A DNA stretch of 64,000 bases from Pseudothauera lacus (GTDB taxonomy: Bacteria > Pseudomonadota > Gammaproteobacteria > Burkholderiales > Rhodocyclaceae). This document shows positions 8,109 to 63,177 of the stretch, piece by piece. The stretch covers positions 1 to 64,000 of the forward strand of contig NZ_PZKC01000002.1 of assembly GCF_003034845.1 (NCBI RefSeq), in the 5' to 3' direction. The first letter of the stretch is position 1; every line of letters starts with the position of its first letter. The notes under the pieces were generated by a model that saw only the letters and a list, made by a program, of their open reading frames with translations, was not told where the DNA came from and searched no databases. The position numbers were made by a program, and so were the translations under genes.

Positions 8109-8217
8109 GGGGCGATGGGCGACGCGGGAAGGGATCAGGCGTCGATTATCCCGGAAACCGTTACCGTCAGACGCCCTGACTTGAGACAGTGTGCGGCACC
8201 AACCCGGCCGCGGCGGA

Positions 8218-8679
8218 TCAGCGACCGGCAGCGTCCTCGCCGGCTTCCTCGACCGGTGCGCCATCCTGTGCCGGCTCGCGCACCGCCTGCACGGCGCCCC
8301 GCCCGGCTTCACGGATCTTCATCGCCGCATCGCGGGTGGCATCGAAAATGCGCCGCGCGGCTTCCTCGGTGGCCTCCTTGGCATCGCGCCCGCCGCTGCC
8401 CGCGGCAGCACCGGCTTCGACGGCCTTCTCGCCCACCTCCTCGATGACTTCCTGCACCCCTTCGACGACCTTGTCCACACCGCCTGCCTCATCCTCCACA
8501 TCATCCTGCGCTGCTGCCTCGTCCTGCGGCGGCGCGGGAATCTGGCGCTCCTCGACCGGCGCCGGGGCTTGGGTCGGCACAGGGGCCGGAGTGGATGCTG
8601 CGGGTTCGGTGGATTCGCCGGAACAGGCGGCGAGGCCGACGACGATGACGGCCACGAGGCACGTCGCGAGGGGTTTCAT
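8218..8679 (-). CDS. Predicted lipoprotein with an Ala/Glu-rich amphipathic C-terminal half
   Basis: 153 residues from ATG at 8679 with AGGAG seven bases upstream. A type II signal peptide with lipobox L-A-A-C predicts lipid attachment at Cys19. A Pro/Ala/Glu linker of about 40 residues follows, then an acidic, alanine-rich region predicted helical. Its last third repeats with an 11-residue period (units beginning AKEATEEA, IFDATRDA, IREAGRGA), like LEA or apolipoprotein helices. No enzymatic motif is visible. Likely an envelope structural or stress lipoprotein; function unknown. It stands alone between the double uvrA and efp on the same strand. Confidence 0.75.
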   Translation of the reverse strand: MKPLATCLVAVIVVGLAACSGESTEPAASTPAPVPTQAPAPVEERQIPAPPQDEAAAQDDVEDEAGGVDKVVEGVQEVIEEVGEKAVEAGAAAGSGGRDAKEATEEAARRIFDATRDAAMKIREAGRGAVQAVREPAQDGAPVEEAGEDAAGR

Positions 8680-8813
8680 GATCGACTCCTGAAGGGGGTG
8701 AATGGCACAGCGTATTGTTGGTGCAAAACTACCTGTTCTGACTGCGAATGCAATGCGCAAGATCCTCTTTTGCACGGCGAATGCGCAATTTTTTGCATTT
8801 CTGCCCGCCACCA

Positions 8814-8847
8814 ACGCAAGAGGCCCGCAGTTGCGGGCCTCTTGCGT
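8814..8847 (-). terminator. Terminator after efp
   Basis: Perfect 16-base inverted repeat (8814-8829 / 8832-8847) 16 bases beyond the efp stop. There is no clear U run on the minus strand, but its strength and position fit a transcription end for earP-efp. Confidence 0.65.
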
Positions 8848-8862
8848 GATGCTGGAACGCGC

Positions 8863-9420
8863 TTACTTGACGCGGTTCTTGTACTCGTCGGTACGGGTAT
8901 CGATCTCGATCTTGTCGCCGATCTCGACGAAGGCCGGCACCATCAGCTCGAAGCCGGTGCCGATGGTGGCGGGCTTGAGCACCTTGCCGGAGGTGTCGCC
9001 CTTCACCGCGGGTTCGGTGTAGGTGACTTCGCGCACCACCGAGTTCGGCAGTTCGACCGAGATTGCCTTGCCGTTGTAGAACACCACTTCGCAGGCCAGG
9101 CCGTCTTCGAGGTACTTGAGCGCGTCGGTCATGTTCTCGGCTTCGACTTCGTACTGCTCGTAGTCGGCGTCCATGAACACGTACATCGGATCGGCAAAGT
9201 AGGAATAGGTCACTTCCTTGCGGTCGAGCTGGACGACTTCGAACTTGTCGTCGGCCTTGTACACCGACTCGGACGGCGCGCCGGTGAGCAGGTTCTTCAG
9301 CTTCATCTTCACGACCGCGGCGTTGCGCCCGGACTTGTTGTATTCGGTCTTCTGGACCACCAGCGGGTCGCTGCCAACCATGATGACGTTGCCGGAGCGG
9401 AGTTCCTGTGCGGTTTTCAT
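8863..9420 (-). CDS. efp: Translation elongation factor P
   Basis: 185 residues, the normal size, with the KOW-like N domain and two OB folds. EF-P enters the ribosomal E site and relieves stalling at polyproline stretches. The modification loop reads S-G-R-N with arginine at position 32. That is the form rhamnosylated by EarP in Neisseria, Pseudomonas and betaproteobacteria, not the lysine form modified by EpmAB. The modifying enzyme gene sits 54 bases upstream on the same strand, supporting this assignment. A strong hairpin follows the gene. Confidence 0.97.
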
Positions 9421-9474
9421 GCTGTTTCCTGGAGTCTTTCAGCCGCGGCAGCGCCGCTGCAAATCATTAAAAAC

Positions 9475-10641
9475 TCAGGATTTTACCGCTGCTTTGTGAA
9501 TTTGCGCCAGTGTCGCGCAAAGATCCGGAAGGGTCGCCAGATGCTCGCACCACAGCGCCGCATGGGCACTTGCACGCGGCAGTGCCGGAGCAAGTCCGGG
9601 CCACGCCACGGCCGGTGATTGCGGCATTGCGGTGGCCTTGTCCGGAAGGCCGTTCCAGGCCAGTGCGAAGGCGCGCAAGGCGGCCGCCGCGTCGTCGTCG
9701 AGCATCGCCGTGTAACGCTGCAGGAAGGCTTCCAGCTTGACGCGGTGGGCATCTGCCTGCTGCGCGTAGATCTGCCAGACGAAGGGACGCGCCGCCCATT
9801 GCGCGCGCACGAAGGAGTCCTCGCCGCGAACGAAGTTGAGGTCGCAGGACCACAGCAGACGGTCATAGTCGTCCTGGGATAGAAAGGGCAGCACCTGCAC
9901 CCGCAAGGCCTTGCGCTGCAGCGGCACGCCGGGCTGCAGCACGCTGCCGAGCGCGGCAGCGGCGTCGACCGCCATCCTGCCTGCGGGAATCAGCAGTTCG
10001 ACCGCCCGTTCGCCGTCGGCCCAGCACCCCAGCAGGCTGCTCAGTTGTGGATGGCCATACGCGAACAGCGATACCGCCAGCGCTCCGGGGATCAGTGCAA
10101 TGCCCTGTGCCGCCAGCCATTCTTCGCGCGCCCTGGCATCCCCTTGAAAGGCCGTGCGCGCGGCAAGCAGGCCGGGCTCACGGAGCAGGCCGCCGGTGCG
10201 CGGCTCGAAGCCGGGAAAACAGAAACGCTTCTGCAAGGCCAGGCGCGGGTGTGGTGAAGCGAGCAGATGGCAGTCGGCGACCCAGCTCTCGGCAGAGAGG
10301 TATTCGAGGTTCAGCCATGCCGGTGCCACCGGCAAGGCCGCCATGGCCTCCAGTTGCGCGGCGGGCAACTCGCAGGCAAAGGCTTCGATGACCACCATGC
10401 CGGGCTGCAGGGCGCGGAAGTCGTCCTCCCAGTGGCACAGCTCGACTCCGCTGACCCATGCGCCTGAGCTGCCGGCCTGTGGGCACAGGCGCAGCAGGGT
10501 CGCCCAGTCATCCACCCACAGCCGCGGGCGCAGGCCGCGGGCAGCCAGATCGCGCGCCAGCCGCCAGCACACGCCGATGTCGCCATAGTTATCCACAACA
10601 CGGCAGAAGATCTCGAAGTCCGGACGGACGCTGGCAGGCAT
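9475..10641 (-). CDS. earP: EF-P arginine rhamnosyltransferase EarP
   Basis: 388 residues from ATG at 10641 (M-P-A-S-V-R-P); an in-frame ATG at 10755 would add 38 residues without family resemblance. It is an inverting GT-B glycosyltransferase using dTDP-L-rhamnose to modify Arg32 of EF-P. The N terminus has the family signature F-C-R-V-V-D-N-Y-G-D-I-G with Asp17 and Asp21, corresponding to the catalytic aspartate region. It lies directly upstream of efp, in line with a shared transcript. The 5' part of the coding region contains a perfect DnaA box (10589-10597). Confidence 0.95.
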   Translation of the reverse strand: MPASVRPDFEIFCRVVDNYGDIGVCWRLARDLAARGLRPRLWVDDWATLLRLCPQAGSSGAWVSGVELCHWEDDFRALQPGMVVIEAFACELPAAQLEAMAALPVAPAWLNLEYLSAESWVADCHLLASPHPRLALQKRFCFPGFEPRTGGLLREPGLLAARTAFQGDARAREEWLAAQGIALIPGALAVSLFAYGHPQLSSLLGCWADGERAVELLIPAGRMAVDAAAALGSVLQPGVPLQRKALRVQVLPFLSQDDYDRLLWSCDLNFVRGEDSFVRAQWAARPFVWQIYAQQADAHRVKLEAFLQRYTAMLDDDAAAALRAFALAWNGLPDKATAMPQSPAVAWPGLAPALPRASAHAALWCEHLATLPDLCATLAQIHKAAVKS

Positions 10642-10879
10642 GGCAGTGGGCAAGTGACGGAGGAAGCTGGGGAGGACTTGTGGGTAAGTGGGCAAAAGCG
10701 TGGGGGAGCGAAAACGGTCTACATTTTCTCCACAGCCGTATGGCAATCCTGCCAAGCGCTTTTCATCAGCTTAAAGCCATTTAAAAACATAACTTTATAT
10801 TAGTTATCCACAGAAAATCAGGCACTGTTAACATCTTTGTTGTTTATATAAACCTTAAAAACAGAAGAAAACACTCACC
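10642..10879. other. AT-rich gene-free region with DnaA box
   Basis: A 238-base gap between two leftward genes. Bases 10740-10870 are strikingly AT-rich against the GC-rich background. TTATCCACA occurs at 10804-10812, and the same box in the same orientation lies 215 bases to the left inside earP. The region probably holds the earP promoter. The AT-rich tract plus DnaA boxes could bind DnaA, but no gene for replication control is adjacent. Confidence 0.5.
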
Positions 10880-22705: not shown

Positions 22706-23386
22706 ATGACCGCGCCGCGCCCGATCCGTTTGTTCCACATCACCGCCATCGCCAACCTGCCGGCAATCTGTGCGGCGGGCGCCTTGCTGTCGAAGAACCG
22801 CGGTGCGGCGAACGGAATCGCCTACCAGAACATCGCCCACAGCGGCGCTCAGGGCGCGCGGGCAGTGCGGCACCTGCCGGACCCACCGGGCGGAGGCGTG
22901 CATGACTTCGTGCCGTTCTACTTCGCGCCGCGCTCACCGATGCTCTTTGCGGTCAACGGCGGCAAGGTAGCGGGATGCGCACTTCGGCAGGCCGACATTG
23001 TCCACATCGAAACGACCGTTGAAGCGGTTACCGCGACCGGGGCGGCTTTCGTGTTCTTTGACCGCAATGCGACCCTTGCCTACAGCCAACCGTATACGGA
23101 CTTGAACGACATCGACGATGCCGTCGCCTGGGATCTGCTGACCGAGCCTCCGCAGCTCGATGGCTTCTGCCAGTACTGGCACAATCGGCACGCGGATCCG
23201 CGCCATGTGGACCGGATGGAGCGCAGAATGGCCGAGTTCCTTGTGAGCGACCGTGTGGCGCTGGAGGCGTGCACCCGCATCGGCGTATTCGACACCGCGC
23301 GGCAGGCCGAAGTATCGACCATACTTGAGGCAACGGGCGTGAAGCTGCCGGTGATGGTTGTGAAAGACTGGTATTTTCTGGAGTAA
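22706..23386 (+). CDS. darT: DarT-type DNA ADP-ribosyltransferase toxin
   Basis: 226 residues. DUF4433/DarT fold: L-F-H-I-T with His11 at the NAD site, P-F-Y-F-A-P-R-S-P-M near 70-79, and Arg-Met-Ala-Glu-Phe-Leu with Glu177 as the probable catalytic glutamate. DarT uses NAD+ to ADP-ribosylate single-stranded DNA at short motifs, blocking replication; DarTG systems act against phages. The gene starts three bases after the hsd scar and four bases before darG, so the three share a transcript. No frameshift or missing key residue is visible, so the toxin should be active if made. Confidence 0.92.
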   Translation: MTAPRPIRLFHITAIANLPAICAAGALLSKNRGAANGIAYQNIAHSGAQGARAVRHLPDPPGGGVHDFVPFYFAPRSPMLFAVNGGKVAGCALRQADIVHIETTVEAVTATGAAFVFFDRNATLAYSQPYTDLNDIDDAVAWDLLTEPPQLDGFCQYWHNRHADPRHVDRMERRMAEFLVSDRVALEACTRIGVFDTARQAEVSTILEATGVKLPVMVVKDWYFLE

Positions 23387-23390
23387 TGAG

Positions 23391-24485
23391 ATGACGATCC
23401 AGATCATGCAGGGCGACTTGCTCAGGCAGGACGACGTGGACGCCATCGTGAACACCGTGAACTGTGTGGGCGTGATGGGCAAGGGTATCGCGCTGCAGTT
23501 CAAGAACAAGTGGCCGGCCAACTTCCGCGACTACGCGGCTGCCTGCAAGGCCGGCGAGGTGCGCCCGGGGCGCATGTTCGTGCACGACTCGGGCGGGTTG
23601 ATGAAGCCCAACTACATCATCAACTTTCCGACCAAGGACCACTGGCGCGGAGGGTCGCGCATCGAGTTCATCCGCGATGGGCTCGCCGATCTGGTGACTC
23701 AGGTTCGCAGGCTAGGCATCCGTTCGATCGCGATTCCGCCCCTTGGCTGTGGCAATGGCGGCCTGGAGTGGTCCCGGGTGCGCCCGTTGATCGAGAACGC
23801 ATTTGCCGCACTGCCCGACGTCGATGTACGGCTGTTCGAGCCCGGAGAGGCACCCGATCCGAGGTCCATGGAGGTCAACACCGCGCGCCCAAGGATGACG
23901 CCTGGCCGTGCGGCGATACTCAAGTTGATCGAGACCTACCGCGCGCTGGATTATGGGCTGTCCCGCATCGAGGTGCAGAAGCTTGCTTACTTTCTTCAGG
24001 AGTGTGGCCAGCAGCTGGAACTGAAGTTCGTGAAGCACCATTACGGACCGTATTCGGATGCCTTGCGCCATGCGCTGCAGCGCATGGAAGGCCACTTTAT
24101 CCGCGGTGTTGGCGACGGTGTGGTGGAATCAGAGATTGCACCGCTGAACGAAGCCCTGGTCGAGGCAGAACGTTGCATTGCCGAAGAGGGTAATGAAGCC
24201 CTGAATGAACGCGTCGAGCGTATCGCCGTGCTGATTGACGGCTTTCAGTCGCCGTATGGGATGGAGTTGTTGGCAACGGTCCACTGGGTATGTTCGCGTG
24301 AAGGCGCAGGCAGCGCGGATGAAGCCTTGTGCCGCATCGGCGAGTGGAATGGGCGCAAGAAGTCGTTGATGTCCGCAGGCCATGTGCAGGCGGCCTGGCT
24401 GCAACTCCAACGTACGGGATGGCTGGGCAGGCAGTCCTCGCGGCGCACCCCTGCCGACGAAGCGAGACATTGCACAGCGGGGTGA
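23391..24485 (+). CDS. darG: DarG-type macrodomain antitoxin
   Basis: 364 residues. An N-terminal macrodomain (about 1-150) has V-N-T-V-N-C-V-G-V-M-G-K-G-I-A near 20-34. The segment N-F-P-T-K-D-H-W-R follows, whose Lys82 probably matches the catalytic lysine of DarG. This domain removes ADP-ribose from DNA thymidine or guanosine. A separate C-terminal domain (about 175-350) opens K-L-I-E-T-Y and should be the DarT-binding neutralising part. GGAG precedes the ATG. The last 15 or so residues are basic and low-complexity. It protects the cell from the adjacent DarT. Confidence 0.92.
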   Translation: MTIQIMQGDLLRQDDVDAIVNTVNCVGVMGKGIALQFKNKWPANFRDYAAACKAGEVRPGRMFVHDSGGLMKPNYIINFPTKDHWRGGSRIEFIRDGLADLVTQVRRLGIRSIAIPPLGCGNGGLEWSRVRPLIENAFAALPDVDVRLFEPGEAPDPRSMEVNTARPRMTPGRAAILKLIETYRALDYGLSRIEVQKLAYFLQECGQQLELKFVKHHYGPYSDALRHALQRMEGHFIRGVGDGVVESEIAPLNEALVEAERCIAEEGNEALNERVERIAVLIDGFQSPYGMELLATVHWVCSREGAGSADEALCRIGEWNGRKKSLMSAGHVQAAWLQLQRTGWLGRQSSRRTPADEARHCTAG

Positions 24486-54412: not shown

Positions 54413-55645
54413 ATGACAGCTTTGCCACCTCCTCCTCCGCCCGCCGCCCGCCTGGAAGCCGGCTCACCGGCCTTCCGGCGCGCCAACCAGGCGCTCTTCC
54501 TCGGTGGCTTCGCCACCTTCGCCATGCTCTACGGCACCCAGCCCATCCTGCCGCTGCTGTCGACCACCTTCGCGGTCAGCCCGGCGCAGGCCAGCCTGTC
54601 GGTATCCGCCGGCACCGGCGCGCTGGCCGCGGCACTGATTCCGGCCAGCATCCTGTCCGACCGCTACGGGCGCCGCCAGGTGATGAACGTCGCCCTGGCG
54701 CTGGCCGCACTGCTGGCGCTGGCCTCGGCCTTCGTTACCAGCTTCGACCAGTTGCTGGTGCTGCGCGCCCTGCTCGGCCTGGCGCTGGCCGGCCTGCCGG
54801 CGGCAGCCATGGCCTGGCTCGGCGAGGAGATTTCGCCGGCTGCGCAGGGCCGCGCGATGGGCCTGTATATTGCCGGCAACGCGCTGGGCGGGATGAGCGG
54901 GCGTTTCATCTCCGCGCTGCTCACCGATTTCTTCTCCTGGCGCATCGCGCTGGGCCTGCTGGGTGTGCTCGGCGCGCTCGCCGCGCTGGCCTTCTGGCGC
55001 TGGCTGCCGGCCTCGCGCCATTTCAGCGCCCGCCCCGCCACCCCACGCCGCGTACTGCGCGACGTCTGCGCGATCTACCGCGATCCCGGCCTGCCGTGGC
55101 TGTTCCTCACCGCCTTCCTGATCATGGGGGCCTTCGTCGGGCTCTACAACTACCTCGGTTTCCGCCTCCAGGATGAACCCTTCCACCTCGGCCAGAGTGC
55201 CGTGGGGGCGGTCTTCCTGCTCTATCTGCTGGGCACCTTCGCCTCGGCCTGGGCCGGCCAACTCGCCGACCGCTTCGGCCGCCGCAACGTGCTGTGGATG
55301 ATGCTGCTGGTGATGGCCGGCGGGCTGGCGCTGACGGTCAGCGAGCGGCTGGCGGTGCTGATCGTCGGCGTCGGGGTGTTCACCTTCGGCTATTTCGCTG
55401 CCCACACCGCGGCCAGCAGCTGGGTCGGCAAGCGTGCGCAGGAACACCGCGCACTGGCCGCCGCGCTGTACCTGTGCAGCTACTACTTCGGCAGTAGCGT
55501 GCTGGGCACCGTGGGGGGGCTGGCGTGGAGTGCCGCGCAATGGCCCGGCGTGGTCGCCCTGCTGGCCGGCTGCAGCGCGGCCGCCCTGGCGGTGGCGCTG
55601 TGGCTGCGGCGGTTGCCGGCGGTGGAGCTCAGTCCTCGCCCTTGA
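54413..55645 (+). CDS. MFS transporter (YnfM-like)
   Basis: 410 residues, 12 helices. MFS motif A-type loops R-Y-G-R-R-Q and R-F-G-R-R-N follow helices 2 and 8, and M-L-Y-G-T-Q-P-I-L-P is in helix 1. Related to E. coli YnfM and arabinose-exporter-type drug/H+ antiporters; substrate unknown. Controlled probably by the divergent LysR. The 3' end overlaps the convergent small exported protein by 17 bases. Confidence 0.9.
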   Translation: MTALPPPPPPAARLEAGSPAFRRANQALFLGGFATFAMLYGTQPILPLLSTTFAVSPAQASLSVSAGTGALAAALIPASILSDRYGRRQVMNVALALAALLALASAFVTSFDQLLVLRALLGLALAGLPAAAMAWLGEEISPAAQGRAMGLYIAGNALGGMSGRFISALLTDFFSWRIALGLLGVLGALAALAFWRWLPASRHFSARPATPRRVLRDVCAIYRDPGLPWLFLTAFLIMGAFVGLYNYLGFRLQDEPFHLGQSAVGAVFLLYLLGTFASAWAGQLADRFGRRNVLWMMLLVMAGGLALTVSERLAVLIVGVGVFTFGYFAAHTAASSWVGKRAQEHRALAAALYLCSYYFGSSVLGTVGGLAWSAAQWPGVVALLAGCSAAALAVALWLRRLPAVELSPRP

Positions 55646-55982
55646 TGCCCCTGGCCACTCCGCGGGCACCGTCGCGCACGCCGTGGCCGATCTCGCGGCC
55701 GACGGTGGCGGCGCCCTGGCCGACCTTCACGCCGGCGTCGCGGGCAATGTGGCCAATGCTGCGTCCGCTGCCGACCACCGTGCTGCCAATGCCCTTGCCG
55801 AGCGCGACCGCCCCTTCGCCGATCTCGCGTGCGGCGCTGCCGACGGCGTGAGCGCTCTGCGCGGCGGTGGAAGAGGGCGGCGGACTGTTGTCGGCCGTGG
55901 CGGTGACGGGGAGCACGGCAAGCAAGGCGAACACGCTGCAAAGCGTCAGTGCAGGCCGCGCAATGATATTGCTCGTCACCAT
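55629..55982 (-). CDS. Exported protein of 11-residue glycine repeats
   Basis: 117 residues from ATG at 55982 behind GGAGG. A signal peptide (about 1-30, ending A-T-A) is followed by a Ser/Pro linker. Then come about six 11-residue units of the form x-G-x-x-I/V-G-x-x-A/V-x-x (LGKGIGSTVVG, SGRSIGHIARD, AGVKVGQGAAT, VGREIGHGVRD and neighbours). The period is that of LEA-type amphipathic helices, with small residues at fixed positions as in glycine zippers. No known family with certainty; perhaps a periplasmic membrane-associated or stress protein. Overlaps the MFS gene end. Confidence 0.75.
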   Translation of the reverse strand: MVTSNIIARPALTLCSVFALLAVLPVTATADNSPPPSSTAAQSAHAVGSAAREIGEGAVALGKGIGSTVVGSGRSIGHIARDAGVKVGQGAATVGREIGHGVRDGARGVARGIKGED

Positions 55983-56192
55983 CGTTGTGCCTCCATCGAA
56001 CTTGCTGGTTGGAGTATGAGCCACCGGCCATGGTTGAGCGGTAAGCGACGGTAAGCGGTACCGTGAAGTGGCCGACGGTCGCTGGAGGAATTGCCGTGAC
56101 TCGCCTGGGGCCCTGTGCTAGCGTGACGAAAGTAATAGAGATGAAAGTTTCGGGCGCCGCAAGGGACGGTGCTCACCGCGAAGAGGTGGCAG

Positions 56193-56507
56193 ATGGGCTT
56201 TGAATTGGCAGTCTTGTCCTCGGGGGGGGACGTGGTGCGGCTGGGACTTTCCGGCCGCCTTGAAGTTGGTGACACGCTGGATTTCCACAAGGCATGCCAG
56301 CCGGTCATCAAGGACCTCGGCGGCAGCGCCCTGCAGCTCGATCTGGAGCGTCTCAGCTACATCGACAGCTCGGGCATCGGTGCCCTGGTGGTGATGCACA
56401 ACCGTGCCCGGGACGAGGGCTGGCGGATGTCGCTGTGCAACTGCAGCGGCGACATCATGAAGGTCCTGCGCCTGCTCAACCTCCACCGCCTCTTCCACAT
56501 CGTCTGA
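56193..56507 (+). CDS. STAS-domain anti-sigma-factor-antagonist-like protein
   Basis: 104 residues, a single STAS domain, starting after AAGAGG. The loop D-S-S-G-I-G-A-L-V (near 62-70) contains the serine that is phosphorylated in SpoIIAA/RsbV-type antagonists. Such proteins bind a serine kinase or anti-sigma factor when unphosphorylated. No RsbW-type kinase is encoded nearby. It is the first gene of a run with a bacteriophytochrome kinase, an HD-GYP regulator and a PP2C-phosphatase regulator; the phosphatase is the obvious partner. Confidence 0.9.
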   Translation: MGFELAVLSSGGDVVRLGLSGRLEVGDTLDFHKACQPVIKDLGGSALQLDLERLSYIDSSGIGALVVMHNRARDEGWRMSLCNCSGDIMKVLRLLNLHRLFHIV

Positions 56508-56557
56508 CCGTCGCGCCACGCACCCGGCCGGGTGCGTGGCGGCGCGGGAGCCCGTGC

Positions 56558-59500
56558 ATGTTGCCCCAGCCCCCTATACAGGCAGACGACGCCGTCGACG
56601 CCGACCGCCTGCTGGCCGCCGCCCTGGAGCGTTGTGCCAGCGAACCCATCCATCTGGCTGGCGCCGTGCAGCCGCATGGCGCCCTGCTGGCCTGTGACGG
56701 TGCCGGCACGGTGCGCATGGCCAGCGCCAATCTGGCGCAGCTTACCGGCGACGACGCTGCAACCGTGCTTGGCCGCTCCTTGCCGGAGGTGCTCGGTGCG
56801 GCGGCGTGCGATGAGATCGAACGCCACCTGCACCGCGACATCGGCAATCCGTCCATTCCCTTCGCCATTGCCACCGCAGGGGGGTGCGCGCTCAGTGCCC
56901 TCGTCCATGCAAGCGACGGCCTGCGCGTGGTCGAGCTGCGCCCCGCTGCCGACGCCGCGCACCTGAACTTCGCATCGATGTATCTGCCGCTGCGCGAGGC
57001 GCTCTGGCACTTCGACCGCGACGACGATGTGGTTGCCTATTGCCGTTTCATCGTCGGTGAGATCCGCCGCCTGACCGGCTTCGACCGCGTCCTGGCGTAC
57101 TGCTTCGATGACCACTGGGACGGCGAGGTCATCGCCGAGAGCCGTAATGAGGCCCTGCCCGGCCTGCTCGGCAACCATTTCCCCGCCTCCGACATCCCCC
57201 CGCAGGCCCGTCTGCTTTACCAGAAGAACCTCGTGCGGGTGATGGAGGATACCGAAGCCGAACCCGCCGCCCTGCTGCCGGCGCGCAACCCGCTCAATGG
57301 GCGCCCCCTGGACCTCAGCCACTCTGCGCTGCGGGCGATGGCGCCGGTCCACGTGAGCTACATGCGCAACATGGGGGTACGTGCCAGCATCACCCTGTCG
57401 CTCAAGCAGGGTGGCCGGTTGTGGGGCCTGATCGCCTGCCACAGTGCCAGCCCCCGCGTCGTGCCCTTTGAGCAGCGCGACCTGCTCGGCTTCGTCGGCA
57501 AGACCATCTCGCTCAAGCTGGCCAGTCTCGAACACCTCGCCAGCAAGCGCTACCAGAGCCGCGCCCGCCAGGTGCTGCTCAGCGTTACCCACGCCGTGCG
57601 CGATGCCGGTGACCTCGGCGAAGGCCTGCGCCGCGTGCAGGGCGACTACCTCGGACTGGCCGATGCCTGTGGCTGCGTGGTGGCCTTCGACGGTCATGTC
57701 GTCACCATCGGCCAGGTGCCACCGCCCGCCTTCCTTGACACCCTGACGGCATGGCTGAAATCGCATCTTTCCGACGACGGCATCCTCCATACCGAACAGC
57801 TTGCCAGCCTGCTGCCGGTCGCTGCCGAACATGCCGGAATCGCCTCCGGGCTGCTGGCGATCGCCCTCGACAGCGAGTTGCGCAGCTACATCTGCTGGTT
57901 CCGCCCCCAGGAACTGCGCGAGATCCATTGGGCCGGCAACCCGCACAAGCAGCTCGTACATGACGACAGCGGTCCGCGCATCGAGCCGCGGACCTCCTTT
58001 GCACGCTGGATCGAGACCGCGCGCAACCGCGCCCGGCCCTGGCAGCATGCCGAGCTTGACGCCGTCAAGCTGCTGTCGCTGGCGGTGCTGCAGGGCGTCG
58101 TCCCCCACGTGCTGCGCGCCCGCGAGGCCGCCGATGCGGCCAACCGCGCCAAGAGCGACTTCCTCGCCACCGTCAGCCACGAGATCCGCACGCCGATGAA
58201 CGCGGTGATGGGCCTCACCTACCTGTGCCTGCAGACCGAGCTCGACACCCGCCAGCACGACTATCTCACCAAGGTCTATGGCTCGGCGCGCAACCTGCTG
58301 CAGCTGCTCAACGACATCCTCGACTTCTCCAAGATCGAGGCCGGCAAGCTGGCACTGGAACAGATCGGCTTCCACATCGACGACGTTCTCGAACGCCTGT
58401 GTACGGTGGTCTCGGTGAAGGCCCAGGAGAAAGGCCTGGAGTTCACCCTGCACACTGCCATGGACGTGCCGCCGGCGCTCATCGGCGACCCCACGCGGCT
58501 GGAGCAGATCCTCATCAATCTCACCGGCAACGCGGTCAAGTTCACACCCGCCGGTGGCGTTGGCGTGGACACCGAGGTGGTGCACCGCGATGGCGAGCGC
58601 GTGCGCCTGCAGTTCACCATCCGCGACAGTGGCATCGGCATGTCCGCCGATCAGCTCACGCGCATCTTCCAGCCCTTCGAGCAGGGCGACCGCTCGATCA
58701 CCCGGCGCTACGGTGGCACCGGCCTGGGCTTGTCGATCAGCCGCCGCCTGGTGGACATGATGGGCGGCGAGATCGACGTCGACAGCGCGCCCGGAAAGGG
58801 CACCACCTTCCGCATCCGCCTGCCTTTCCGCATTCCTGCCGATCTCCCCGCCGAACGTCCCCAGCTCACCAGCCTGCACGGCCTGCGCGTACTGGTGCTG
58901 GAAAGCGGAGGAGCCGGCCGCGAGGTGCTGCTGGCCTATCTGCATGCCTTCCGCTTCCGTGTCGCCGAAGCCGGCAGTGTCGACGAGGCGTGCACCGTTC
59001 TCGCCGGTGCTGCGGCCGCCGGGACGCCCTACGACCTCATCTTTGCCGACCTGCGTGCTGCCGGGTGCACGGCCGGCGAGCTTGCCGCGCGCCTCGGCGC
59101 CGCCTGTGCGGAGGGCTCCGCAGCACGGCTGGTGGTACTCGCCAACATTGCCGATGGCGATCCCGGCGGTATCCCGGCGGGTGTCGATGCGATATTGCTC
59201 AAGCCTTACACGCAGAGCCGCCTGTTCAACACCGTGGCCCGTCTGTTTGGTATCCAGGCGCTGATCGGCAGTGCCGCGCCCCGCATCGATGACGACACGG
59301 TGCGCAGCCACCTGCGCGGCAAGCGCGTATTGCTGGTGGAAGACGACGAGCTCAACCAGGAAGTGGCCGTGCATCTGCTCGCCGCCATCGGCCTCGAGGT
59401 CGACCTCGCCGGCAACGGCCAGCAAGCTCTCGAACGCCTGCAGCAGCAGCGCTACGACGCCGTGCTGATGGACGTACACATGCCTGTGCTCGACGGCTAC

Positions 59501-60373
59501 GGCGCCACCCGCGCAATCCGCGCCCAGCCCGCGCTGCGCACCCTGCCGGTGATCGCCATGACCGCCAACGCCATGCTGCAGGATCGCGAGCGCTGCCTGC
59601 ATGCGGGCATGAGCGACCACATTCCCAAGCCCATCGATCCCGACAACCTGACCCGCTGCATGCTGCGCTGGCTCGCCCCCGATCTCCCCGGCGGCAGCGT
59701 GCGCAGCCCCGTGCAGGCCCAGCCAGCCGAGCCCCTGCCCCATCTCGCCGGCATCGATGTCGAGCGTGGCATCTGGCAGACCGGCGGCACGGTGCATCAG
59801 TACCTTACCCTGCTCGGCCGCTTCCGCGGCAACTACCAGCAGTTCATCGCTGCGCTGTGTGACGAACTTGCCAGCCACCGCCACGACGATGCCATCCGTC
59901 GCGTGCATTCCCTCAAGGGCCTGGCTGGCAGCCTGGGCGCTGTTGCCCTGCAGGAGAAGGCGGCCGCGCTCGAGGAAGCCCTGCGCGCCGGTGCGCGCGA
60001 TCTCGCCCTGGATGCTCTCATCGGTGCCGTGGACAGCGAACTGCAGGCCTTTCTCGGCGAGATCGCGCGCACCGTCACGGCGCCCCCGCCGGAGGCCGCA
60101 GTGGCCGCCGGCGGCCCGTCGCGGACGGCCACGCGTGCCGAGCTGCTTGCCCTGCTCGATGTCGCGCGCAGTTGTCTGGAAGAGTACGACTCGCGCGTCG
60201 ACGAGGTCGTCGCCCGCCTGCAGCCCCTGGTTGCCGGTCAGGCGGCATGGGCCGGGCACTGCCAGGCGCTGGAAAAGTGCGTGCGCAGCTATGACTACGA
60301 AGCCGCCCTGCGTCACCTCGCCGACTGGATGGCGGAGCTGGTGCAGGACGATACGGATGCGAAAGGCCCCTGA
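56558..60373 (+). CDS. Bacteriophytochrome hybrid histidine kinase
   Basis: 1271 residues, ATG after GGGAG. Domain order: PAS, GAF, PHY, HisKA, HATPase_c, two receivers, Hpt. Cys26 in C-A-S-E-P-I-H is placed as the biliverdin-binding cysteine of bacteriophytochromes. The GAF domain has the chromophore-pocket signature P-A-S-D-I-P-P-Q-A-R. Kinase His541 (S-H-E-I-R-T-P). The first receiver keeps Asp831 but has E-S in place of the acidic pair; the second is complete (Asp972). Hpt His1117 is in H-S-L-K-G. A red/far-red light receptor that should pass phosphate through its own relay to the two response regulators downstream. Confidence 0.93.
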   Translation: MLPQPPIQADDAVDADRLLAAALERCASEPIHLAGAVQPHGALLACDGAGTVRMASANLAQLTGDDAATVLGRSLPEVLGAAACDEIERHLHRDIGNPSIPFAIATAGGCALSALVHASDGLRVVELRPAADAAHLNFASMYLPLREALWHFDRDDDVVAYCRFIVGEIRRLTGFDRVLAYCFDDHWDGEVIAESRNEALPGLLGNHFPASDIPPQARLLYQKNLVRVMEDTEAEPAALLPARNPLNGRPLDLSHSALRAMAPVHVSYMRNMGVRASITLSLKQGGRLWGLIACHSASPRVVPFEQRDLLGFVGKTISLKLASLEHLASKRYQSRARQVLLSVTHAVRDAGDLGEGLRRVQGDYLGLADACGCVVAFDGHVVTIGQVPPPAFLDTLTAWLKSHLSDDGILHTEQLASLLPVAAEHAGIASGLLAIALDSELRSYICWFRPQELREIHWAGNPHKQLVHDDSGPRIEPRTSFARWIETARNRARPWQHAELDAVKLLSLAVLQGVVPHVLRAREAADAANRAKSDFLATVSHEIRTPMNAVMGLTYLCLQTELDTRQHDYLTKVYGSARNLLQLLNDILDFSKIEAGKLALEQIGFHIDDVLERLCTVVSVKAQEKGLEFTLHTAMDVPPALIGDPTRLEQILINLTGNAVKFTPAGGVGVDTEVVHRDGERVRLQFTIRDSGIGMSADQLTRIFQPFEQGDRSITRRYGGTGLGLSISRRLVDMMGGEIDVDSAPGKGTTFRIRLPFRIPADLPAERPQLTSLHGLRVLVLESGGAGREVLLAYLHAFRFRVAEAGSVDEACTVLAGAAAAGTPYDLIFADLRAAGCTAGELAARLGAACAEGSAARLVVLANIADGDPGGIPAGVDAILLKPYTQSRLFNTVARLFGIQALIGSAAPRIDDDTVRSHLRGKRVLLVEDDELNQEVAVHLLAAIGLEVDLAGNGQQALERLQQQRYDAVLMDVHMPVLDGYGATRAIRAQPALRTLPVIAMTANAMLQDRERCLHAGMSDHIPKPIDPDNLTRCMLRWLAPDLPGGSVRSPVQAQPAEPLPHLAGIDVERGIWQTGGTVHQYLTLLGRFRGNYQQFIAALCDELASHRHDDAIRRVHSLKGLAGSLGAVALQEKAAALEEALRAGARDLALDALIGAVDSELQAFLGEIARTVTAPPPEAAVAAGGPSRTATRAELLALLDVARSCLEEYDSRVDEVVARLQPLVAGQAAWAGHCQALEKCVRSYDYEAALRHLADWMAELVQDDTDAKGP

Positions 60374-60376
60374 ATC

Positions 60377-61435
60377 ATGCTTGCCGAAGACGACACCAAG
60401 ACCGTCCTGGTGGTGGACGATACCCCCGAGAACATCGATATCCTGAAGGGCATCCTCGGCCCCTATTTCAGCGTGCGCGCGGCGACCAGCGGTGAGACCG
60501 CCCTGAAGGCAGCACGCGCCGGCCGCCGTCCGGACCTGATCCTGCTCGATGTCATGATGGCCGGCATGGATGGCTATGAAGTCTGCCGCCAGCTCAAGGC
60601 CGACGAACACAGCCGCCACGTGCCGGTGATCTTCGTTACCGCACGCTCCAGTCCGCAGGACGAGGCCTACGGCTTCTCCATCGGCGCCGCCGACTACATC
60701 ATCAAGCCGGTCAGCCCGCCGGTGGTCCTTGCCCGCGTGCGCACCCACCTGGCGCTCGCCGACCGCAGCCGCCATCTCGAAGAGCTGGTCGCCGAGCGTA
60801 CCGAGAAGCTCCTCGCCCGCAGCCGCGAGCTTGAACACACCCGCCTGGAGATCCTCCGCCGCCTCGGCCGCGCCGGTGAGTACCGCGACTACGAAACCGG
60901 CATGCACGTCATCCGCCTCAGCCAGTTTGCCCGCCTGCTCGCCGAAACCCAGGGCATGGGCAGCATCGAGGCCGAGCAGCTGATGTACGCTTCCATGCTG
61001 CATGACATCGGCAAGATCGGTATTCCCGACGACATCCTGCTCAAACCCGGACGGCTGAGCGCCGAGGAATTCGCCCTCATGAAGACCCATTGCCGCATCG
61101 GTGCCGACATCATCGGTACGCAGGATTGCGCGCTGCTCCAGCTCGCTGCGCAGATCGCCCTCACCCATCACGAGCGCTGGGACGGCGGCGGCTATCCCGC
61201 CGGGCTGGCCGCCGAGCACATCCCGCTGGCCGGACGCATCACCGCCGTGGCCGACATCTTCGATGCCCTCACCTCGAAGCGGCCGTACAAGGACGCCTGG
61301 CCGGTGGAGCGGGCGCTCGATCACATCGCCGGCGAGGCCGGCAAGGCCCTCGACCCCCGGCTTGCCCACGCCTTCGTCGCCCGCAAGGACGCCATCTGCC
61401 GCATCATCGAGCAGTTCCGCGAACATGCCGACTGA
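60377..61435 (+). CDS. Response regulator with HD-GYP phosphodiesterase domain
   Basis: 352 residues, starting three bases after the kinase. Receiver with Asp58 (L-L-D-V-M-M), a helical linker, then HD-GYP: H-D-I-G-K with His209-Asp210, H-H-E-R-W-D-G-G-G-Y-P near 265-273. All metal and GYP residues appear present, so it should hydrolyse cyclic di-GMP. Probably phosphorylated by the bacteriophytochrome Hpt. Its end overlaps the next gene by 11 bases. Confidence 0.95.
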   Translation: MLAEDDTKTVLVVDDTPENIDILKGILGPYFSVRAATSGETALKAARAGRRPDLILLDVMMAGMDGYEVCRQLKADEHSRHVPVIFVTARSSPQDEAYGFSIGAADYIIKPVSPPVVLARVRTHLALADRSRHLEELVAERTEKLLARSRELEHTRLEILRRLGRAGEYRDYETGMHVIRLSQFARLLAETQGMGSIEAEQLMYASMLHDIGKIGIPDDILLKPGRLSAEEFALMKTHCRIGADIIGTQDCALLQLAAQIALTHHERWDGGGYPAGLAAEHIPLAGRITAVADIFDALTSKRPYKDAWPVERALDHIAGEAGKALDPRLAHAFVARKDAICRIIEQFREHAD

Positions 61436-62555
61436 GGCCGCGCCGCGCCGCGCGGTCATCCTCGCCGTCGACGACACGCCGTTCAACCTCGACACCCTCA
61501 CCGAGCTGCTGCGCGACGAGTACACCGTGCGTCCCGCCCTGAATGGCGAGATCGCCCTGCGTCTGGCGCGCGGCAACACCGCCCCCGATCTCATCCTGCT
61601 CGACGTCATGATGCCGGAGATGGACGGCTACGAAGTCCTCCGACGCCTCCGTGCCGACCCCGAGACTGCCGACATACCGGTGATCTTCATCACCGCGCTG
61701 ACACATTTCAGCGACGAAAGCCGCGCCCTCGCGCTGGGTGCCGCAGACTACATCACCAAACCCTTCAGCCCCCCGGTGGTGCTCGCCCGCGTGCGCACCC
61801 AGCTCGCCCTGCAGCAGGCCCGCCGCCGCCTGCAGGCGGCCAATGCCCGCCTCCTCGCCGAGCGTGAGCTGATCGAGGATGTCCTTACCCGCCTGCGCGA
61901 GACCGAGAGCTTCGACGCCCGTCAGCTGCGCTACCACCTCTCCTCGGTGGATCGCAGCAACGGTGACATCCTGCTTGCCGCGTTCACGCCCGACGGCGGC
62001 CAGCGCCTGCTCGCCGGCGACATCGCCGGGCACGGCCCCGCCGCCGCCGCCTGCGCGCCGCTGCTCGGCCACCTCTTCTACACCGCGTGCGCGGAGGGGC
62101 ACAGCGCCCGCGCCCTCCTTGATACCCTGGGCAGCGTGCTCTTCCGCCGCCTGCCGGCACAGATCTTCCTGGTCTTTGCGCTCGTCGAGATCGCTGCCGG
62201 GCGCCGCCACGCCACGGTGTGGAACGGTGGCCTGCCCGGCTGCGTCGTGCTGCGCCCGCAGGCGCCGCCCGTGCATCTGGGCTCGCGCTCGCTGCCGCTC
62301 GGCCTGCAGGCGGCCGGTCCGGCAGCAGACGAGGGCGTGTTCGTCGAGCTGGCCGCGGGCGACCGGCTGTGCCTGTTCTCCGACGGTGTCAGCGAAATCA
62401 CCAACGCTGCCGGTGAGGCTCTGGGTGAGGAGGCTGCGGCAAGGATGCTGCAGCAATGCGGCGGCGATCCCGACGCCTTCGTTGCCGCCCTGGTCGGCTA
62501 CCAGGGCCACGACCGTTTTCGCGACGACCTCACCATCGCCGCGCTGGAGATCTGA
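61425..62555 (+). CDS. Response regulator with SpoIIE-type PP2C phosphatase domain
   Basis: 376 residues from ATG at 61425, overlapping the HD-GYP gene. Receiver with Asp60 (L-L-D-V-M-M-P), coiled linker (about 125-165), then a PP2C/SpoIIE domain with G-D-I-A-G-H-G near 198-204, S-D-G-V-S-E and D-D-L-T metal-binding motifs. RsbU-like proteins dephosphorylate STAS antagonists; the STAS gene 5 kb upstream in the same operon is the likely substrate. Light would thus control a partner switch. Confidence 0.95.
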   Translation: MPTEAAPRRAVILAVDDTPFNLDTLTELLRDEYTVRPALNGEIALRLARGNTAPDLILLDVMMPEMDGYEVLRRLRADPETADIPVIFITALTHFSDESRALALGAADYITKPFSPPVVLARVRTQLALQQARRRLQAANARLLAERELIEDVLTRLRETESFDARQLRYHLSSVDRSNGDILLAAFTPDGGQRLLAGDIAGHGPAAAACAPLLGHLFYTACAEGHSARALLDTLGSVLFRRLPAQIFLVFALVEIAAGRRHATVWNGGLPGCVVLRPQAPPVHLGSRSLPLGLQAAGPAADEGVFVELAAGDRLCLFSDGVSEITNAAGEALGEEAAARMLQQCGGDPDAFVAALVGYQGHDRFRDDLTIAALEI

Positions 62556-62568
62556 GGATGCGCGCTGC

Positions 62569-63177
62569 TCAGGTCTCGTCGCCGCCCACCCATTTCGGCA
62601 CCGCCGGCGGCCGGTAGGCGGCAAAACGCTGCAGCAGTGCCACCGGATCGCTGTCCACGATGACCATCTCGCGGTGTACCGGACGGACGAACTCCTCCGC
62701 TGCCGCATGGTCGAGGAAGCCGACCAGGCGATCGTAATAGCCTGCGGCATTGAGCAGGCCGCAGGGTTTGCCGTGGAAGCCGAGCTGCGCCCAGGTCCAC
62801 ACCTCGAAGATCTCCTCGAAGGTGCCGATGCCGCCCGGCAGGGCGACGAAACCGTCGGCCAGCTCGGCCATCAGCATCTTGCGTGCATGCATCGATGGTG
62901 TGACGTGCAGCTCGGTGAGCCCGGCGTGAGCGAGCTCCTTGCGCATCAGCGCCTGCGGGATCACCCCCACCGCCTCGCCGCCGAGGCGCAGGATCTCGTC
63001 GGCGACCGTTCCCATGATGCCCACGCTGGCACCGCCGTACACCAGGCGGATGCCGCGCGCCACCATCGCCTGCGCGAGGGCGCGCGCCGCATCGGCGTAG
63101 ACGGGCTGGCGCCCGCTGGCGGAACCGCAGTACACGCACAGGCTGCGCAGTGGGGTGGAGGCAGGGTGGTCGTTCAT
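62569..63177 (-). CDS. LOG-family protein (cytokinin riboside 5'-monophosphate phosphoribohydrolase-like)
   Basis: 202 residues. LOG signature P-G-G-I-G-T-F-E-E at 114-122 and the paired M-H-A-R-K with Arg99. Family enzymes release the base from nucleoside 5'-monophosphates (AMP or cytokinin nucleotides). Convergent with the phosphatase regulator, 13 bases apart; no functional link evident. Confidence 0.92.
   Translation of the reverse strand: MNDHPASTPLRSLCVYCGSASGRQPVYADAARALAQAMVARGIRLVYGGASVGIMGTVADEILRLGGEAVGVIPQALMRKELAHAGLTELHVTPSMHARKMLMAELADGFVALPGGIGTFEEIFEVWTWAQLGFHGKPCGLLNAAGYYDRLVGFLDHAAAEEFVRPVHREMVIVDSDPVALLQRFAAYRPPAVPKWVGGDET

Follow-up and report, generated by a model that had tools for sequence, protein, structure and literature searches.

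The window, a 64,000-nucleotide stretch of the Pseudothauera lacus genome (positions 1 to 64,000 of contig NZ_PZKC01000002.1, assembly GCF_003034845.1), carries on its plus strand four genes at 56193-62555 that encode a STAS protein, a bacteriophytochrome hybrid histidine kinase, a response regulator with an HD-GYP domain and a response regulator with a PP2C phosphatase domain of the SpoIIE family. The parts, their motifs, the gene order, the linkage to heme oxygenase in two relatives and the occurrence of STAS next to PP2C regulators elsewhere, all read from sequence, suggest a light-regulated branched phosphorelay that would drive both an HD-GYP branch and a PP2C/STAS branch, a proposal whose chances of being right or wrong we judge to be about equal.

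Architecture of the operon

The initial annotation had described four adjacent genes on one strand, and this was borne out by open reading frames (ORFs) that each have a positive coding score and by Pfam domains, taken throughout as matches above the gathering score, with the first receiver of the kinase as the exception. The genes encode the STAS protein of 104 residues (56193..56507), the kinase of 1271 residues (56558..60373), the HD-GYP regulator of 352 residues (60377..61435) and the PP2C regulator of 376 residues (61425..62555). A gap of 50 nt separates the STAS and kinase genes, and the last three genes do nearly touch or overlap as annotated, with a 3-nt gap between kinase and HD-GYP and an 11-nt overlap between HD-GYP and PP2C, so that the spacing is operon-like. 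A search of 55600-62800 gave neither a promoter-like site of sigma70 type nor a terminator-like one, where 0.5 and 2.2 are expected by chance, and this carries little weight at the given G+C.

The kinase matches PAS_2, GAF, PHY, HisKA, HATPase_c, one Response_reg and Hpt in Pfam. Its PAS2-GAF-PHY photosensory module (56633..58096) aligns over its length with solved bacteriophytochromes (many BphP entries, and 9jry at E = 6.8e-98). Residue 26 is the Cys of the C..EPIH motif and is aligned with that of a solved phytochrome, and PASDIP and PRTSF are also present; we take Cys26 to be the bilin attachment site and the two motifs to have their usual phytochrome meanings. The kinase core of HisKA and HATPase_c (58148..58831, SHEIRTPMN) and the Hpt domain (59810..60049, HSLKG) were recognised by Pfam and in the orthologue alignment, and the canonical second receiver (59327..59653) by Pfam. 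The first receiver (58874..59251) scores only 14.2 bits in Pfam against a cut-off of 30.2 (E = 0.05). It retains the FADL Asp and the KP Lys in all three orthologues, but only one Glu remains of its acidic pair and the Thr/Ser is lost; given the roles that we presume for these residues, it is probably a pseudo-receiver. The annotated kinase with two receivers and Hpt thus stands for the second receiver and the Hpt domain, and the first receiver is degenerate.

The RsbV/SpoIIAA-like STAS protein consists of a single domain (Pfam STAS, 2.6e-11) and matches PF01740 and PF13466 only; against TIGR00377 (ant_ant_sig) it reaches 50.4 bits, slightly below the cut-off of 53.45. S59, the first Ser of its IDSSG motif, is invariant in all seven aligned rows and is presumably the phosphorylation site. 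The HD-GYP regulator matches Response_reg and HD_5/HD, and residues 132-349 match the solved enzyme 4mcw, its best solved HD-GYP relative (1.6e-51), with the HD and HHExxDGxGYP motifs intact. The PP2C regulator matches Response_reg and SpoIIE. Its phosphatase part matches solved SpoIIE-family phosphatases weakly (best 3.6e-8), and the GD, GD, DG and DD residues, whose Asp we assume to bind metal, are invariant in 7/7 rows of alignment A1. The protein ends after the PP2C domain, and Pfam gave no HATPase match and no fused RsbW kinase domain.

Proposed phosphorelay

By what is known of these protein families, biliverdin on the PAS-GAF-PHY module would set the activity of the HisKA kinase, and phosphate would pass from HisKA to the second receiver, on to Hpt and from there to the receivers of both downstream regulators. 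In one branch the HD-GYP phosphodiesterase would be switched and cyclic di-GMP (c-di-GMP) broken down; in the other the PP2C phosphatase would be switched and would strip phosphate from the STAS serine, changing the binding partner of STAS, with a sigma or anti-sigma factor, FlgM or a cyclase among the conceivable final targets. The opposing serine kinase would act in trans, and the best candidate is an orphan RsbW-like protein encoded on another contig (C37) of the same genome. We infer bilin binding, the direction of light control, the routes of phosphotransfer, STAS as the substrate and the identity of this kinase.

Conservation and modularity

The PP2C regulator was used as a tracer in 150 and 395 genomes of the family (overlapping samples) and in 399 genomes of the order. 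At most 13 candidates per genome were scored in the set of 150 and at most 7 in each of the other two, and the counts are accordingly lower bounds. Close relatives within the family were found in G585, G081, G020, G126, G071, G138 (two copies) and G747 (a fragment), and the best match outside it among the order genomes was in G422 (4.9e-66). In the searches of 395 and 399 genomes the rows from which A1 was built match themselves, and their E-values have to be read as such; G585, G747 and G422 are independent finds. The full phytochrome set of four genes is present in at least three genomes including that of the window among the 395 family genomes searched, namely in two of six members of the genus and in one of three of the genus of G081.

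In G585, of the same genus, the STAS, phytochrome kinase, HD-GYP and PP2C genes follow in identical order, and the kinds of flanking genes match those of the window (MFS, LysR, thioredoxin and LOG, as we take them to be). G081, of another genus of the same family, has the identical order between different flanking genes. Since the order is kept in two further genomes, in one case between other flanks, it is not due to chance. Identity to the window proteins in G585 and G081 is 62 and 55% for the kinase, 75 and 66% for the HD-GYP regulator and 65 and 46% for the STAS protein. In the annotation a lack of conservation in relatives was to speak against the operon; it is complete in both of these genomes, and the set is rare yet conserved.

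Parts of the set also occur apart. G020, of the genus of G081, has STAS and the PP2C regulator only, between matching flanks and without the phytochrome kinase and HD-GYP, and because just that pair is kept it can stand alone. G138 (locus L063) and G422 (L158) combine STAS and both regulators with a hybrid kinase of non-phytochrome type; the phytochrome module was undetected in L063, and in the L158 kinase the sensors are DAHL and PAS, with Hpt also present. The annotated absence of any described system with this exact set therefore has to be qualified, as the same four kinds of genes occur with another hybrid kinase. These two loci suggest that the sensor is exchangeable, and the annotated pairing of STAS with the PP2C regulator is found also beside other sensors. 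The other G138 copy is truncated by a contig start, and its HD-GYP and PP2C regulators follow the end of a protein that is 31% identical over 131 residues (3e-9) to the C-terminal part of the phytochrome kinases. In G126 the two regulators adjoin each other and STAS was undetected.

A wider comparison covered 39 SpoIIE loci: the window, 32 loci around PP2C matches and six of the seven SpoIIE loci found with longest ORFs. The set was chosen, not random, and omits L124 (a SpoIIE match in a 1775-residue frame), G556, most order-level matches and the other three SpoIIE matches of the window genome; where a contig end truncates a locus, as happens in several, an absence is weak. An earlier search for related loci with the whole PP2C regulator was set aside, as it gave mostly receiver-only matches with a SpoIIE gene in 3/80 loci by a codon-based caller and in 7/80 by longest ORFs. 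That caller was trained on 13 window genes and left 12 of the 80 loci without a gene call, so longest ORFs were used for all 80; a PHY match in L087 from the caller did not recur with longest ORFs and was dropped. In the tree of the 39 SpoIIE domains the window, G585, G081 and G020 form one supported group (98/90).

A STAS gene lies within 8 kb in 15 of the 39 loci. REC-RsbW, an RsbW kinase domain joined to a receiver (REC), is a neighbour in L062, L161, L162 and L179, and RsbW is in the SpoIIE reading frame itself in L159, L160, L170, L174, L069, L084, L095 and L121, with REC undetected in that frame in L095, L170 and L174. One of these loci, L062 of G071 (8115-10663), has REC-RsbW and STAS on one strand and the PP2C regulator on the opposite strand, possibly a partner switch in which the kinase and the phosphatase each carry a receiver.

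Candidate serine kinase

The initial annotation held that the serine kinase or anti-sigma partner of STAS is missing locally. For the kinase this holds, since an RsbW gene was undetected within 8 kb of the operon in the window genome (G000), G585 and G081, but an RsbW-like gene that is not exclusive to operon carriers is present elsewhere in the genome. The idea of a window genome lacking such a kinase was dropped once A2, a profile built from the RsbW domains of relatives, found at least one RsbW-like gene on contig C37, encoding 176 residues (L191, 8895-9425). The protein matches Pfam HATPase_c_2 when scanned alone (3.5e-7) and has the ATP-site residues of the family. Among the 20 matches listed by a genome search with HATPase_c_2 it was missing although it passes the cut-off alone, and because a known member was missed the count of one is to be read as a minimum. 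Against the PDB the A2 profile found one solved relative at E 0.01, 9qih, 'SenB', of 304 residues (9.6e-15), and nothing relevant to it was found among the literature matches listed.

G585 has a similar gene at the same kind of site, and RsbW-like genes occur in all six genus genomes searched, the site having been viewed in G000, G585 and G057. The gene 5′ of the C37 gene presumably encodes an RND efflux pump. A like RND-type site in two other genera holds a kinase, REC-RsbW and a PP2C regulator (L162, L195), and for this reason the C37 gene looks like a remnant, which may now serve a new partner. As a counter-kinase of the STAS protein it is possible.

Other small STAS proteins of the window genome are encoded on C37, C4 and C34, one each, the last beside a SpoIIE gene; we take the neighbours to be Mla-like genes on C37 and a CheA-like gene after the one on C4. 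A locus on C34 (L021, 4160-6668) encodes a SiaB-like protein, a divergent STAS protein below the Pfam cut-off and a SpoIIE phosphatase, and is possibly another partner-switch set.

Alternative readings

Several observations weigh against the branched light-controlled phosphorelay. The operon was undetected in four of the six genus members at the threshold of the 395-genome PP2C search. Four of the six genus genomes with the RsbW-like gene likewise show no orthologue of the PP2C regulator at search threshold. A C37 gene dedicated to the operon was rejected on this account, and the kinase has another role or predates the operon. Two SiaB-type (DUF6272) proteins, the second only at the cut-off, are alternative candidate kinases, and of the G081 RsbW-like proteins one has its own PP2C regulator as neighbour and one lies in a 678-residue frame with a SpoIIE match. 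The HD-GYP motif of G585 reads HHEKWNGGGYP, and because of this Asp to Asn change c-di-GMP hydrolysis by that protein is uncertain. Finally, the HD-GYP and PP2C receivers of the window share 55% identity where they match, but the receiver of another HD-GYP protein of the genome, on C39, is 56% identical to the PP2C receiver; since it is just as similar, receiver likeness was rejected as evidence of a common phosphodonor.

The last observation also bears on the reading that the genes are merely inherited together and that light controls one branch only, with a different kinase serving the regulator of the other. That a PP2C regulator can work with another kinase is further suggested by G020, where it accompanies STAS without a phytochrome, but the tight or overlapping spacing and the identical order in three genomes argue the other way, and we consider this reading somewhat unlikely.

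It could also be that STAS binds and gates the co-encoded HD-GYP protein, so that there is no second pathway and both outputs converge on c-di-GMP. Of the 39 SpoIIE loci, 19 have an RsbW domain fused or nearby and nine an HD-GYP gene, and none has both (hypergeometric, 8e-4), as if HD-GYP replaced the kinase or target. The arrangement would mirror HsbA-HsbD, BgrV-BgrR and SiaC-SiaD, in which, according to the excerpted texts, cyclases are under the control of STAS or STAS-like proteins (PMC8457831, PMC7647112). The exclusion is suggestive but not significant once relatedness is counted (independent pairs, p 0.25-1), and several of the loci are cut by contig ends. Moreover, STAS was undetected in four loci with HD-GYP (L060, with its 5′ end cut, L061, L173 and L178), the HD-GYP proteins of L173 and L178 have no detected receiver, and G020 keeps STAS and PP2C without HD-GYP. 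We know of no STAS-controlled enzyme that degrades c-di-GMP, no search aimed at one having been made. We regard such gating as improbable. A combined form, in which the light-driven PP2C dephosphorylates STAS and STAS gates an HD-GYP protein that is itself also set by receiver phosphorylation, appears distinctly improbable; if STAS did gate HD-GYP, the phytochrome would reach a single c-di-GMP phosphodiesterase along two routes.

Bilin supply bears on the last alternative. Heme oxygenase, the enzyme of biliverdin synthesis, adjoins the operon in G585 (L176, 10584-11204, divergent from STAS; Pfam 2.5e-18) and in G081 (L058, 6002-6613, 3′ of PP2C with a 4-nt overlap; 3.2e-11). The gene of the window genome is on contig C23, outside the operon. 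No heme oxygenase remnant was found in the window, where one chance match lies at about 29.8-29.9 kb (E 0.56), and G020 gave no heme oxygenase match at E 0.001. That the phytochrome is no photoreceptor in practice, having no bilin or responding to redox or heme, would fit the window operon without heme oxygenase but is highly improbable, given the gene elsewhere in the genome and beside the operon in two relatives, and the Cys, a PASDIP-type motif (PAADIP in G585) and a PHY tongue motif that are kept in all three species.

The heme oxygenase gene on C23 adjoins a second phytochrome of 489 residues without an output domain (L154, 6162-12001; about 295-301 kb of C23), which also adjoins a CheR-PAS-GGDEF-EAL protein truncated where the extracted sequence ends; together they may form a split system for light control of c-di-GMP. 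The genome has a further match to heme oxygenases (L153, C4:92438-93064), in the C-terminal part of a 725-residue protein whose start we take to resemble an AMP-binding enzyme, and a like match lies within a 776-residue frame in G108.

Other loci in the window

At 22706-24485 of the plus strand a DarT-type DNA ADP-ribosyltransferase gene (Pfam 1.2e-54) is followed by a macrodomain protein gene (1.6e-23), a putative DarTG-like toxin-antitoxin pair; the gene beside it is presumably gyrB-like.

Comparison with known systems

The nearest described case is, by analogy, the HsbR/HsbA partner switch. In the excerpted account of P. aeruginosa, hybrid kinases act via the Hpt protein HptB on the REC-PP2C-kinase protein HsbR, and HsbR in turn sets HsbA, whose binding partner is FlgM or the cyclase HsbD (PMC6482189). 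As in HptB-HsbR-HsbA-HsbD of Pseudomonas aeruginosa and CrsR-CrsA of Shewanella oneidensis, a REC-PP2C regulator is paired with STAS in the window, and the operon and the Hsb system, in so far as that text covers it (PMC6482189), have in common a link to c-di-GMP and, if the predicted transfer takes place, an Hpt-type phosphodonor. Like HsbA, the co-encoded STAS protein has a single domain with a conserved Ser, here S59. HsbR and CrsR, as there described, have a serine kinase/anti-sigma domain fused, which the window regulator lacks; in addition the window Hpt is fused to the phytochrome kinase, and as the c-di-GMP enzyme a phosphodiesterase response regulator stands in place of a cyclase.

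The kinase resembles bacteriophytochrome histidine kinases (BphP/BphO) in PAS-GAF-PHY, the conserved Cys and PASDIP, and in the neighbouring heme oxygenase of two relatives, but differs from them as a hybrid with pseudo-REC, REC and Hpt beside HD-GYP and PP2C/STAS genes. The RsbU-RsbV-RsbW switch of SigB type shares a SpoIIE-family PP2C, a STAS protein with a conserved Ser and an RsbW-like kinase in the genome, whereas the window PP2C carries a receiver and its candidate kinase is unlinked. From REC-HD-GYP phosphodiesterases, with their complete HD/HHExxDGxGYP motifs, no difference was noted at the sequence level. SiaABCD of P. aeruginosa likewise joins a phosphatase and a STAS-like protein to control of c-di-GMP, as far as the excerpts describe it (PMC8457831, PMC7647112), but the window STAS protein has no match to SiaC (PF09345). 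A separate SiaABCD-like operon is present on C34 (L022, 3626-7390), with SpoIIE with HAMP, DUF6272, SiaC and a 268-residue protein where SiaD would be expected.

That light feeds into PP2C/STAS switches is not new in itself, since excerpted reports propose a light link to an RsbV homologue for HltA, an RsbU-like phosphatase of cyanobacteria that has a GAF domain (PMC9430166), and describe red light acting on Bacillus SigB via RsbP/Q (PMC3019169). A phytochrome phosphorelay with HD-GYP in a PP2C/STAS switch appears to be new, and no description of phytochrome, HD-GYP and STAS/PP2C combined was found among the open-licence literature matches listed. The operon is a new combination of known modules. 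Of the light-controlled branched switch as first annotated, the gene set, spacing, conservation and catalytic motifs stand, and the first receiver, the exact-set claim and the missing kinase have been corrected. If the proposal is true, a single red/far-red sensor would govern c-di-GMP breakdown as well as a STAS partner switch, and the operon would be a compact natural light-controlled module offering a direct test of environmental input to HsbA-type STAS proteins.

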